From contig NZ_JOPJ01000006.1 in NCBI RefSeq assembly GCF_002153655.1, positions 248,001 through 312,000 on the forward strand: DNA of 64,000 bases, read 5' to 3'. This stretch comes from Acetobacter okinawensis (lineage in GTDB: Bacteria; Pseudomonadota; Alphaproteobacteria; Acetobacterales; Acetobacteraceae). Position 1 is the first letter of the stretch. Each line of letters begins with the position of its first letter. Both the position numbers and the translations under genes were made by a program. Positions 45,586 to 50,228 of the stretch are shown here, in pieces. Under the pieces are notes generated by a model. It was not told the origin of the DNA, made no database searches, and saw only the letters and a program-made list of their open reading frames with translations.

Positions 45586-46863
45586 TTAAGCCTGATTGCC
45601 CAGCACGGTGTGGATTGTACGGCACAAAAAGGCCAGATCGTGCTCGCTTATGGTGAAGGCGGGGGTCAGATACACAATATTGCGGAAAGGCCGTATCCAT
45701 GCGCCATGGGCTACCAGTTGCTGGCGGAGCGCATCGGGGTTGGCAATGCGGTCCAGTTCCACAACGCCAATGGCGCCCAATGTCCGTACATCACGCACAC
45801 CCGGCAGGGACCGGCATGGCTCCAGCCACGTACTCATGCGTGCACTGATTGTAGCCACCTGCTCCAGTCTTGGTTCTGCCTCAAACAGGTCGAGCGATGC
45901 ATTGGCGCAGGCGCAGGCCAGTGGGTTGGCCATAAAGGTTGGCCCATGCATGAGTGCGTGCTCGGGGTTGTCGGACAAAAAAGCGTCAAAGACGTGTTTG
46001 CGCGCAATTGTGGCGGCAAGGGCCATGGTGCCCCCGGTCAGGGCTTTGGACAGGGTGATGATGTCCGGCGTAATGCCAGCCTGCTCGCAGGCGAACATGG
46101 TCCCTGTGCGGCCAAAACCCGTAAAAATTTCATCCAGAATGAGCAAGGTATCATAGCGGTCGGCTGCGGCGCGGACCGTGCGCAGGACCTCGGGGGTATG
46201 GAAGAGCATTCCCCCCGCCCCCTGCACCAGTGGCTCCATGATAATGCCTGCCAGTTCATGGGCATGGCTGGCAAGCAGGGACAAAAACGCCTGCGTGCTC
46301 GCGACATCTACCGGCAGCGGGGCAATGACATGCTCTGTCAGCGCAGGGCCGTACAGGTGGTGCATGCCTTCTTCAGGGTCGCAAATGGCCATGGTGGCCA
46401 GCGTGTCCCCATGGTAGCCACCATGGAAAGCCAGCATTTTGGTACGCTGGCGTTCCCCTTTGTTCAGTCGGTACTGGATAGCCATTTTCATGGCGACTTC
46501 CACCGCAACCGAACCCGAATCTGTAAAAAAGACGCGCTCCAAATCTCCGGGCAGCAGGGCGCACAAACGGCTGGCAAGGCGCAGGGCGGGCTCATGCACC
46601 ATGCCGCCAAACATGACATGCGGCATCACCTCAAGCTGGCGTGCAACGGCCTGTCGGATATGGGGGTGGTTATAACCGTGGCAGGCTGTCCACCATGCGG
46701 CAACGCCATCTACAAGTGTGCGTCCGTCTGTCAGGGTCAGGTGGCTCCCCTGTGTGCTTTGTGCTGCCAGTGGCGGGGGTGCACTTTGCATCTGGCTATA
46801 TGGGAGCCAGATATGGGGCAGGCCTTTCTGGTACCAGTCGGGCATGGAGGCAGGTGCGGGCAT
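45586..46863 (-). CDS. bioA: adenosylmethionine--8-amino-7-oxononanoate aminotransferase
   Basis: The PLP enzyme makes 7,8-diaminopelargonate in biotin synthesis, with SAM as the amino donor. The 425-residue product has DGVAAWWTACHGYNHP, FTDSGSVAVEVAMKMAIQY, AFHGGYHGDT, ILDEIFTGFGRTG and the PLP-lysine motif TLSKALTGGTMAL. The ATG at 46863 is taken as start because the frame upstream overlaps bioF. It is divergent from bioF across 58 bases that include a dyad. Confidence 0.96.
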   Translation of the reverse strand: MPAPASMPDWYQKGLPHIWLPYSQMQSAPPPLAAQSTQGSHLTLTDGRTLVDGVAAWWTACHGYNHPHIRQAVARQLEVMPHVMFGGMVHEPALRLASRLCALLPGDLERVFFTDSGSVAVEVAMKMAIQYRLNKGERQRTKMLAFHGGYHGDTLATMAICDPEEGMHHLYGPALTEHVIAPLPVDVASTQAFLSLLASHAHELAGIIMEPLVQGAGGMLFHTPEVLRTVRAAADRYDTLLILDEIFTGFGRTGTMFACEQAGITPDIITLSKALTGGTMALAATIARKHVFDAFLSDNPEHALMHGPTFMANPLACACANASLDLFEAEPRLEQVATISARMSTWLEPCRSLPGVRDVRTLGAIGVVELDRIANPDALRQQLVAHGAWIRPFRNIVYLTPAFTISEHDLAFLCRTIHTVLGNQA

Positions 46864-46921: not shown

Positions 46922-48121
46922 ATGACGCGGTTTGATAATCTTTTCCAGCAGGGACTGGCTGGTTTTGCAGCACAGGGGCGCATGCGCGCATGCAAACAGT
47001 GGCATGCGGCAGGGCCGGGGCTGTTGCAACATCCCGATACGGGGGCAGTTCTGGTCGATTTTTCGTCCAATGATTATTTGGGGCTACGTACCAACCCCCT
47101 GCTGAGTGCGCGGGGTATGGCATGGGCGCAGGCAGAAGGCAGCGGAAGTGGGGCCTCGCGGCTGGTCACAGGCACGCCGCCCCAGACCATGGCGCTGGAG
47201 CAGCGGCTGGCGAGCCTGAAAGGGATGGAGGCCGCCCGCATTTTTTCATCCGGCTGGCAGGCCAATGCCTCTGTTGTACCAGCCCTTGCCCGGCTTTCTG
47301 CTCAGGTTACGGGGGCTCCAGCCATTATTGTGGCGGACAGGTTCATCCATGCCAGCCTCTACCATGGGTGTGCTGCGGCAGGCGTGCGGCCAAAGCGCTT
47401 CCGCCATAATGATCTGGCACACTTGGATACGCTGTTGGGGCAGGAGAGTGGCGACGGCCTTAAAATCGTGCTGACCGAGAGCGTGTTCAGTATGGATGGT
47501 GACCGGGCGGACATAGAGCAACTGCGCGCCATAACCTTGCGGCACAATGCGTTTTTGTGTGTGGACGAGGCACACGCCACAGGCATTCTGGGTACGCAGG
47601 GCAAGGGGCTGGTCAACGGGCAGGCGGACCTTGTGGTTGCCACCTTCAGCAAAGCGCTGGGGGGGATGGGCGCTTTTGTGGCTGCGTCCGAAGCGGTGTG
47701 CCGCTGGCTGGATAATACGGCATCGGGCTTTATCTATTCTACCGCACCATCACCCATGGTGTTGGGGGCGGTGGACGCCGCACTGGACCTGTTACCCGGC
47801 ATGGCCGACCAGCGCGCGCATGTGGCAGGCCTTGCCAGCGCGTTCAGGCAGCGCATGGCGTGTGCCGGGCTGGATGTGGGGCTGTCTGCCACCCAGATTG
47901 TACCTGTGGTGGTCGGGGCCGAGCATACGGCACTGGCGTTGGCGCGGCTTGTGGAGCAGGCGGGCTTTCTGGCTGTTGCCATTCGTCCGCCAACGGTGCC
48001 TCCCGGTGGGTGCCGCCTGCGGGTGGTGTTCCATGCGCACCATACTGAAGCGCAGATGGAAGGGCTGGCAGCGGCCATTATTGAGGGCGTGGGTGCGTGT
48101 GCCGCGGAGATGAAGGGATGA
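46922..48121 (+). CDS. bioF: 8-amino-7-oxononanoate synthase
   Basis: The PLP enzyme condenses pimeloyl-ACP with L-alanine. It has 399 residues from the ATG at 46922, though no strong Shine-Dalgarno is visible. The fold-type I motifs are SSNDYLGL, GSGSGASRLVTGT, ESVFSMDGDRADI, VDEAHATGILG and the PLP-lysine motif ATFSKALGGMGAF. The stop overlaps the next gene as ATGA, so bioF, the esterase and bioCD form one operon. Confidence 0.96.
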   Translation: MTRFDNLFQQGLAGFAAQGRMRACKQWHAAGPGLLQHPDTGAVLVDFSSNDYLGLRTNPLLSARGMAWAQAEGSGSGASRLVTGTPPQTMALEQRLASLKGMEAARIFSSGWQANASVVPALARLSAQVTGAPAIIVADRFIHASLYHGCAAAGVRPKRFRHNDLAHLDTLLGQESGDGLKIVLTESVFSMDGDRADIEQLRAITLRHNAFLCVDEAHATGILGTQGKGLVNGQADLVVATFSKALGGMGAFVAASEAVCRWLDNTASGFIYSTAPSPMVLGAVDAALDLLPGMADQRAHVAGLASAFRQRMACAGLDVGLSATQIVPVVVGAEHTALALARLVEQAGFLAVAIRPPTVPPGGCRLRVVFHAHHTEAQMEGLAAAIIEGVGACAAEMKG

Positions 48122-48813
48122 GGCCCGTGCAGCCCGTTTTTGTGCATGGCTGGGGGTTTGGTCCGGATTTCTGGGCGCCGGTGCAGGCTGAGTTGGGGTG
48201 GGATGATGCGTTGACGCTGGATCTGGGGTTTGTGGGGCAGGCCCGTCCCGCGTCTTGCGCACTTGCCGCACAGCAGATGCAGGCTGCGCAGGCGCAGGGC
48301 GCGGCTCTTCTGGGGGTAGGGCACTCGCTGGGTTTTTTATGGCTGGCGCAGCATATGGACCTTTCTTGTGCAAACCGGTTGGTGGGGATTAACGCTTTTG
48401 CGGCCTTTGCTGCGCGTGAGACGTTTGCCAGTGGTGTGCCGGTGCGTGTTTTGCAGCGCATGCTCAAAGGGCTTGCCAATGCGCCAGAAAAGGTTCTGGC
48501 CGATTTTCGTGGTCTCTGTGGTGCAGAAGAGACTACCCGGTGCGGGCCTAATGTCCCCAACCTGCGTATCGGGCTTGACCTGCTGCTCACGGGCGATGTC
48601 CGGAGCAGGCTGGCCCATGCGGCGGAACCCTGCTGCGTGCTGGCAGCTCGGCAGGACCCCGTTGTTTCCACCGCCATGACGGAGGACAGTTTTGCGCAAG
48701 GTGAGGACATTCACTGGGTAGCAGGGGGGCATCTTCTGCCACAAACCCATGTGCAGGCCTGTGCGGCGTTCTTGCAATCGGCACGTAAGACAATGGAACA
48801 GGATGCGACATGA
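48118..48813 (+). CDS. alpha/beta hydrolase, probable pimeloyl-ACP methyl ester esterase
   Basis: The 231-residue protein has the oxyanion start VFVHGWGFGPDFW at about residues 7-19 and the nucleophile elbow GHSLG near 68-72. A late Asp (AARQDPVVS) and His (WVAGGHLLP) complete a Ser-Asp-His triad. Its place between bioF and bioC-bioD, with ATGA overlaps at both ends, matches the job of BioH, BioG and similar esterases that free pimeloyl-ACP from its methyl ester. It is shorter than E. coli BioH (256) and only broadly similar, so the exact subfamily is open. Confidence 0.75.
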   Translation: MRPVQPVFVHGWGFGPDFWAPVQAELGWDDALTLDLGFVGQARPASCALAAQQMQAAQAQGAALLGVGHSLGFLWLAQHMDLSCANRLVGINAFAAFAARETFASGVPVRVLQRMLKGLANAPEKVLADFRGLCGAEETTRCGPNVPNLRIGLDLLLTGDVRSRLAHAAEPCCVLAARQDPVVSTAMTEDSFAQGEDIHWVAGGHLLPQTHVQACAAFLQSARKTMEQDAT

Positions 48814-50228
48814 CTCAAAAGCCGCACAAAGAGCGCATACGCCACAGCTTTGACCGAGCCTCGGGGTACGATGGTGCAGCAACCGTACAGCGCCTTGCGG
48901 CCCGCCAGCTTGTGACCCGGCTTGCCAGTAGCCTGAACGGTCACTCCCCCAAGCGGATTCTGGAGATCGGGTGTGGCACGGGTCTGCTGACCGAGCAACT
49001 GGCCCGGCGCTGGCCTGACGCGCAGATTGTTGCGACCGATTTTGCGCCGCATATGCTTGAGCGCGCCAAAAAGAACGGTACGCCCAACACAGTGTTTGCA
49101 TGGATGGATGCGGCCAGTCCTACTGTTGAAGGGCCGTTTGATGTGGTCTGCGGCAATCTGATCATGCAGTGGCTGGAGCAGCCCGCAGCCGTGCTGGAGC
49201 GCCTTGGCGGGCTTTTGGCTCCCGGCGGCGTGCTGGCTGTTTCGGCCCTGCTGGATGGGACTTTTGCTGAGTGGAAAGCCGCCTGCGCGCAGGAGGGCGT
49301 GCAGCCCGCAACCCCATGCTACCCCGAAGCTGCAAGCATACAGCAGTGGGTACCATGGCTCTTTTCCGGCGTGTGGGAGGCGGAACGCTGCGTACAGGTT
49401 TTTGACTCCGGTCTGGCATTTGTACGCCACCTCAAAGCCACGGGAGCTTCGGTCCCTCAGCCGGGTAGCCAGCCTATGGGGGCAGGGGCGCTCCAGCGTG
49501 TGGCCCGCCGTCTGGAGCAGGGCGGAGGTGCTGTTACGTGGGAACTGGTTTATGGCTGTTTTCGCAAACCTGCCGTGGCGGGTGTGTTTGTGACCGGCAC
49601 GGATACGGGAGTAGGCAAAACACTGGTTTCGACCTGTCTGGTCCAGCGGTGGCAGGCGGCATACTGGAAGCCCCTGCAAAGCGGACTGGCGGATGAGGCC
49701 GGGGATACCACAACTGTGACCGATCTGGTGTCACAGGCAGAGTGCTACCCACCTGCGGGGGCATTTCAGGCGTCACTTTCGCCGCAGGCGGCCGCATTGG
49801 CGGAAGGGGTGGTTATTGACCCCGCGCACCTTGCCCTGCCCCAAACAGAGGCAGGCCGGGTGCTGGTGGTGGAAGGGGCTGGCGGGCTGATGGTCCCGGC
49901 AACCGACAGATTGATGATGCTGGATTTGGCAGCACTCTGGGGTCTGCCCGTGGTGCTGGTGGCCCGCAGCGGGCTTGGCACACTCAACCACACATTGCTG
50001 AGTTTGCAGGCTTTACGTAGCCGGGGTGTGGCGGTTGCCGGGGTTGTGCTCAATGGCCCGCGTAATCCGGCCAACAGCCAGACCATTGCGCAAAAAGGTG
50101 CGGTGCGGATTCTGGCTGAAGTGGAACACCTGCCCCAGATCACACCTGCTACGGTAGCGGAGCAGGCGGCTCTTTTTCCCTCATGGGCCGAGGTATGCGC
50201 TCAGGGCACTGGGTGCGAAACGCGATAA
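48810..50228 (+). CDS. bioCD: fused malonyl-ACP O-methyltransferase and dethiobiotin synthetase (BioC-BioD)
   Basis: One 472-residue frame carries two biotin enzymes. Residues 1-252 are a BioC-like SAM methyltransferase: IRHSFDRASGYDGAATVQ is the BioC N-terminus, LEIGCGTGLL (51-60) is motif I, and CGNLIMQWLEQP follows. Residues about 257-472 are BioD: P-loop GTDTGVGKT (263-271), catalytic Lys in WKPLQSG (287), VVEGAGGLMVP and GLGTLNHTLLS. The linker is only a few residues (FRKPAVAG). The junction falls near 49570. Both active-site sets look intact, so the protein could start and nearly finish the pathway. Confidence 0.93.
   Translation: MTQKPHKERIRHSFDRASGYDGAATVQRLAARQLVTRLASSLNGHSPKRILEIGCGTGLLTEQLARRWPDAQIVATDFAPHMLERAKKNGTPNTVFAWMDAASPTVEGPFDVVCGNLIMQWLEQPAAVLERLGGLLAPGGVLAVSALLDGTFAEWKAACAQEGVQPATPCYPEAASIQQWVPWLFSGVWEAERCVQVFDSGLAFVRHLKATGASVPQPGSQPMGAGALQRVARRLEQGGGAVTWELVYGCFRKPAVAGVFVTGTDTGVGKTLVSTCLVQRWQAAYWKPLQSGLADEAGDTTTVTDLVSQAECYPPAGAFQASLSPQAAALAEGVVIDPAHLALPQTEAGRVLVVEGAGGLMVPATDRLMMLDLAALWGLPVVLVARSGLGTLNHTLLSLQALRSRGVAVAGVVLNGPRNPANSQTIAQKGAVRILAEVEHLPQITPATVAEQAALFPSWAEVCAQGTGCETR

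Follow-up and report, generated by a model that had tools for sequence, protein, structure and literature searches.

The DNA analysed here is a stretch of 64,000 nucleotides from Acetobacter okinawensis (hereafter the window), which holds a group of biotin genes centred on bioCD (48810..50228, forward strand), a single ORF predicted to encode a BioC-BioD fusion protein. Upstream of this ORF lies bioF (46922..48121, forward strand, with a likely ATG at 46922), for which TIGR00858 was the best model with 359.2 bits, a score below its cut-off of 426.45. The bioA gene (45586..46863, reverse strand, start codon estimated; PRK05964, 589.9 bits, cut-off 494) is divergent from bioF. The bioCD ORF is directly preceded by a gene for an alpha/beta hydrolase (48097..48813, forward strand, start codon uncertain; Abhydrolase_6, 30 bits, cut-off 26.3), the stop codon of which overlaps the bioCD start codon as ATGA (48810-48813). 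This hydrolase is likely a pimeloyl-ACP methyl ester esterase, and among the NCBIfam models it showed a weak match to BioH (47.7 bits against a cut-off of 206.95). A 33% relative of it occupies the same position in Magnetospirillum fulvum, and an alpha/beta hydrolase is also found there in Azospirillum. It may represent an unnamed, divergent type of operon esterase. The Azospirillum counterpart gave no NCBIfam match at 1e-12. Downstream of bioCD, lexA lies on the opposite strand, and bioB (409 bits) was found elsewhere on the same contig. A promoter scan detected no promoter-like site and a terminator scan gave no usable candidate.

The bioCD ORF runs from ATG to TAA and encodes 472 amino acids. 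In the preliminary description it had been read as BioC and BioD in one uninterrupted frame with the motifs of both, and this was borne out: its 472 codons contain no internal stop, both protein families match, and all of the quoted motifs were found. The predicted BioC domain (malonyl-ACP O-methyltransferase) occupies residues 13-253 (48846..49568), as indicated by TIGR02072, an alignment with Escherichia coli BioC and a Foldseek search. It contains LEIGCGTGLL (residues 51-60, 48960..48989), presumably the SAM-binding motif, as it had been named previously. The predicted BioD domain (dethiobiotin synthase) occupies residues 258 to approximately 464 (49581..50201) on the basis of PF13500, TIGR00347 and solved BioD sequences, and contains the P-loop GTDTGVGKT (residues 263-271, 49596..49622) and WKPLQSG (residues 286-292, 49665..49685), the KP..SG of which corresponds in alignment to KPVASG in the E. 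coli protein. Counted between the last glycine of BioC and the first glycine of BioD, the junction between the two comprises the eight residues 250-257 (49557..49580).

BioD closes the ureido ring of dethiobiotin, using ATP and CO2. The BioD half of the protein passed the cut-off of the NCBIfam model TIGR00347 (residues 260-415, 138.3 bits, cut-off 83.3) and matched the Pfam model AAA_26 (PF13500; residues 258-447, 197.8 bits, cut-off 27). Residues 260-443 share 31% identity with E. coli BioD, and the alignment showed the P-loop, KP..SG and EGAGG motifs all present as in that protein. Seven solved BioD sequences also matched this half, with values of 7e-14 to 4e-13. Dethiobiotin synthase activity is thus predicted for it from sequence. 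Within the whole genome the bioCD frame was the only match to TIGR00347; a second AAA_26 match was found elsewhere (67.4 bits), at which TIGR00347 gave no match. Among the best 50 structure matches listed by Foldseek and VIA-align no BioD chain appeared, these places being taken by the BioC half. An AlphaFold model of the protein was built from a shallow alignment of eight sequences (mean pLDDT 69.6), and its BioD half is too weak for domain contacts to be judged.

BioC methylates the free carboxyl group of malonyl-ACP with S-adenosylmethionine, after which fatty acid synthesis builds the pimelate chain. TIGR02072 covers the BioC half over the whole length of the model at 167.7 bits, short of the curated 184.95-bit cut-off; it is the top NCBIfam methyltransferase model for this half, with the next one scoring approximately 97 bits lower. 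Pfam models of class I methyltransferases match within residues 30-180, and residues 6-249 share 27% identity with E. coli BioC. Four other fused proteins scored 156.8-167.0 bits against TIGR02072, such that the BioC halves of all five fused proteins scored fall below the cut-off. The separate BioC of M. fulvum also does so, and that of E. coli passes with 259.6 bits. The solved BioC structures 8x8j and 8x8i were ranked 1-5 and 7 by Foldseek for the AlphaFold model, and in VIA-align they reached a Z of 21.3, tied with other methyltransferases (Z of approximately 21), so the fold by itself does not single out BioC. The identity of this half as BioC, with a predicted activity, is drawn from the margin between the models, the E. 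coli alignment, the Foldseek ranking and the biotin gene neighbourhood.

The distribution of the fused form was studied in sets of genomes of increasing breadth. The closest named relative is A. okinawensis (97%), and A. lambici and A. syzygii also carry the fusion. In the genus Acetobacter all 49 genomes matched, and in 47 of them a single frame on a single contig covers both domains (36 checked by script, 11 resting on the match table); in the remaining two (G027 and G043) the gene is broken at contig ends, with the BioC end still joined to BioD. The sample of the family Acetobacteraceae (n = 397, four candidates scored per genome) yielded matches at 1e-15 in at least 167 genomes. At least 80 matches spanned both domains, three of them with an intergenic stop, which leaves the fused form in at least 77 of the 397 genomes and at least 17 genera. 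Of these 77, 42 were checked by script, including at least one per genus, and 35 rest on the match table. The table gives a stop within five of the 77, of which the three checked by script proved to be one frame; the other two, G401 and G319, rest on the table. In the order sample (n = 299) only members of the Acetobacteraceae were listed.

Outside the family, four spanning matches were found in the class sample (n = 385) and ten in the phylum sample (n = 398), each with a stop, and hence no uninterrupted frame was seen in either. Two-piece matches in these two samples were read in part and the samples missed the fusion of Azospirillum, so absence of the fused form elsewhere is not shown by them. 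The Azospirillum fusion was found in a search of plasmids, where 80% or more of the query lies together in seven of 199 matching records, all seven from Azospirillum. Inspection of four of these, which are megaplasmid records, showed one gene of 469-473 codons with an alpha/beta hydrolase gene and bioA on either side; its annotation in all four is dethiobiotin synthase only, the BioC half being unnamed. In Azospirillum brasilense Sp7 (L222, 3941-5350) the megaplasmid carries a complete operon, bioF-hydrolase-bioCD-bioA-bioB. Four phage records matched, none of which covers 80% of the query. Proteins with BioC followed by BioD, the taxonomic range of which the preliminary description had proposed to map, therefore occur in Acetobacter, in many of its relatives (at least 17 genera of the family) and in some Azospirillum. 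It had also been asked whether this copy alone might be fused among close relatives with separate genes; the relatives proved to be fused as well, and the separate pairs within the family belong to nested lineages. An artefact of sequencing or assembly in the A. okinawensis genome is refuted, with next to no probability left to it, since 47 of the 49 Acetobacter genomes share the frame, as do A. okinawensis, A. syzygii, A. lambici and the four Azospirillum records.

Both halves of the protein are under purifying selection. In comparisons with three Acetobacter species, dN/dS was 0.14-0.20 for the BioC half and 0.09-0.14 for the BioD half, with dS near saturation in one of the three, and for a stretch of ten residues at the junction two comparisons could be computed, with values of 0 and 0.09. 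Retention of the frame in at least 17 genera together with these low values points to more than chance. They also bear on the suggestion that the frame has been kept with one half, BioC or BioD, as a non-working passenger. The BioC score under the curated cut-off would fit such a loss, but selection acts on both halves, both models are matched over their whole length, the top Foldseek match is a BioC, and the BioD model matches nothing else in the genome; a passenger half is accordingly very improbable. It should be noted that, with BioC below the cut-off in all five fused proteins scored and the Sp7 gene named as dethiobiotin synthase only, bioC may be wrongly reported as missing, and pathway reconstructions may wrongly score such bacteria as being without it.

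Separate, adjacent bioC and bioD genes were found in eight genera of the family (g10, g32, g46, g54, g61, g66, g70 and g101), and in separate relatives the two genes mostly overlap or lie a few bases apart. This fits the suggestion of the preliminary description that the fusion arose through a lost stop between adjacent genes. Some other arrangements were also observed. In g68 and g81 (L124-L127) bioC was found with an esterase gene and no bioD within the fetched stretch, and in g80, g49 and g43 (L121-L123) bioD was found, with bioF in two of the three, and no bioC within the fetched stretch. In genome G182 (L128, L216) the rpoB match is split into two pieces that overlap, and bioD appears to have a broken frame, which suggests that this assembly has frameshift errors.

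Alignment showed that the junction is exactly eight residues long in 58 of 68 fused proteins and in 12 of 17 genera, and ten residues long in Azospirillum. In the separate pairs the BioC tails range from 4 to 27 residues and the BioD leads from 2 to 24, where these could be anchored and with start codons guessed; for L006, L007 and L055 the BioC tail was unanchored and left out, and L055 and L056 lack an ATG for the BioD lead. A largely uniform eight-residue junction against such ragged separate tails favours a single origin. In g32 and g101 (L102-L108, L114 and L115) the BioD lead comprises 14-19 residues before the first strand and is mostly proline-rich in all nine loci, and may be the remnant of an earlier linker. 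Leads of 2-5 residues are usual in the other separate BioD proteins, with 9 in g46, 12 in g10, 13 in g66, 22 at L053 and 24 in g70 (starts guessed).

An internal start of bioD at the junction was considered and rejected. Of the 68 fused genes, one has a Shine-Dalgarno-like motif ahead of the junction, a lower frequency than before random codons in the same frames (111 of 1360); at the bioD start of separate genes such a motif is present in 21 of 33. In the 66 fused loci for which junction codons could be counted (two of the 68 were missed by the search pattern), the first junction position is a valine codon in 59 and GTG in 30, where the share of GTG among all valine codons is 0.47. An ATG within 16 codons around the junction was found in two of these 66. 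With no sign of a start at the junction, the cell probably produces BioD solely in its fused form.

The history of fused and separate genes was followed in two types of tree. In an RpoB tree of 59 of 60 genomes (G182 being left out due to its rpoB match in two pieces), the separate genera fall in three places among the fused genera, namely g10, g46 and a clade of six genera. Four changes between fused and separate states suffice to explain this tree, in which g68 and g81 were included but uncounted, or five if these two, with bioC but without adjacent bioD, are treated as a third state. The deep forks that decide this count have middling support (88/89, 91/80 and 94/90). A tree of the BioC and BioD protein sequences with 83 rows, reduced from 102 by removal of 12 near copies and seven long or odd rows, one of which was the fused L081 from g31, also gave four changes and placed Azospirillum beside the whole family with a support of 90/92. 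Six changes were counted in a fuller, quick tree of 98 rows. A single clade of all fused proteins was rejected in an AU test (log-likelihood 100.4 lower, p-AU 0.0001), in which the labels fused and separate were assigned by gene structure and the trees had already been inspected beforehand.

The simplest history, and the preferred and most likely one, would be a single fusion followed by about three fissions, the number of events being taken from the trees. Neighbouring, overlapping bioC and bioD genes would have lost the intervening stop once, at the base of the fused lineages of the Acetobacteraceae or earlier, perhaps before the split from Azospirillum. At equal cost, the four changes could also be a fusion, a fission, a re-fusion in the group of g23, g26, g37, g79, g9 and g85, and a fission in g46. 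Within this group the junctions are of six residues in g9, g23 and g85, nine in g37 and g79, and eight in g26. For Azospirillum, the ten-residue junction and its placement with a support of 90/92 make an independent fusion or a transfer conceivable, and its form may be the product of either. A history with no fission at all, in which separate ancestral bioC and bioD genes fused many times independently, is unlikely. A small change would be enough for each such fusion, given that the genes overlap or almost touch in most separate relatives, and junctions of 6, 9 and 10 residues do exist; but on the RpoB tree eight separate fusions would be needed within the family, and the same eight-residue junction occurs in 12 of 17 genera despite the variable tails of the separate proteins.

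BioC stands at the start of the biotin pathway and BioD catalyses the penultimate step near its end. Taken together, the gene, domain and tree data make it likely that bioCD encodes a working bifunctional enzyme that supplies both activities, here inferred from sequence, in a 1:1 ratio and descends from an old single fusion which was later split in some lineages. The BioC half would methylate malonyl-ACP at the entry of the pathway and the BioD half would form the dethiobiotin ring near its end, with one translation start in the bioF-esterase-bioCD operon fixing the two at 1:1. As their steps are not consecutive, direct transfer of an intermediate between the halves is impossible and the fusion most likely provides no substrate channelling. 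Its benefit is most likely a fixed ratio of the enzymes, or else the fusion is simply harmless. It may, as the preliminary description suggested, balance the entry of the pathway with late flux.

BioC is costly to the cell, since it diverts malonyl-ACP. It might be imagined that the halves are coupled by contact, such that the BioC half responds to the state of the BioD half, which would link the entry of the pathway with its exit. The short junction of conserved length would suit such coupling, but several lineages keep bioC and bioD as separate genes, and the idea is rather improbable. The same low probability is given to its extension, in which the BioD half of an old, hidden fusion restrains the costly BioC half and the re-split lineages had to replace this control; if true, sister lineages with the fused and the split form, nested as they are, would provide a natural experiment on the fusing of non-consecutive enzymes. 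The existence of fused and split sister lineages makes the effect of the fusion testable with natural proteins.

The enzymes themselves are ordinary, but their old pairing is unusual and the record of fusion and fission is instructive. The pairing had been called unusual in the preliminary description; the fusion is real, and no paper describing it was found among the open-access literature matches listed. In the main text of a survey of gene fusions, the word "biotin" occurs 0 times (PMC4921024). In a symbiont of planthoppers belonging to the Acetobacteraceae, the term bioCD denotes two pseudogenized genes (PMC11264691). In E. coli the same two enzymes are encoded in the same gene order, but as two proteins, with an overlap of eight bases between bioC and bioD. 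Among the loci of relatives compared, only one separate pair comes from a named organism, M. fulvum, which has the cluster bioF-esterase-bioC-bioD-bioA. Its order from bioF to bioD is alike and bioC and bioD overlap as ATGA, but it makes two proteins and its bioA follows bioD, whereas bioA is divergent in A. okinawensis.

Natural fusions of biotin enzymes include a bifunctional BioA-BioD (DAPA aminotransferase-dethiobiotin synthetase) in plants and fungi (PMC10829540). Here too BioD is joined to a second biotin enzyme in a bifunctional protein, but the steps are consecutive, the organisms are eukaryotic and the partner is another one (PMC10829540). The BioG-BioC fusion of Bacteroides fragilis was shown to replace both of the corresponding E. 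coli functions, in a paper where fused enzymes are said generally to catalyse consecutive steps (PMC3494674). BioC-BioD adds a pair from the entry and the penultimate step to these natural fusions, contrary to that rule (PMC3494674). It resembles BioG-BioC in being a natural fusion of BioC with a biotin enzyme encoded by a neighbouring gene, the steps of which are not directly consecutive (PMC3494674). The B. fragilis protein differs in that its partner is the esterase BioG, its halves are separated by a gap of ten residues, mostly alanine and proline, and five other Bacteroides are reported with separate proteins (PMC3494674).
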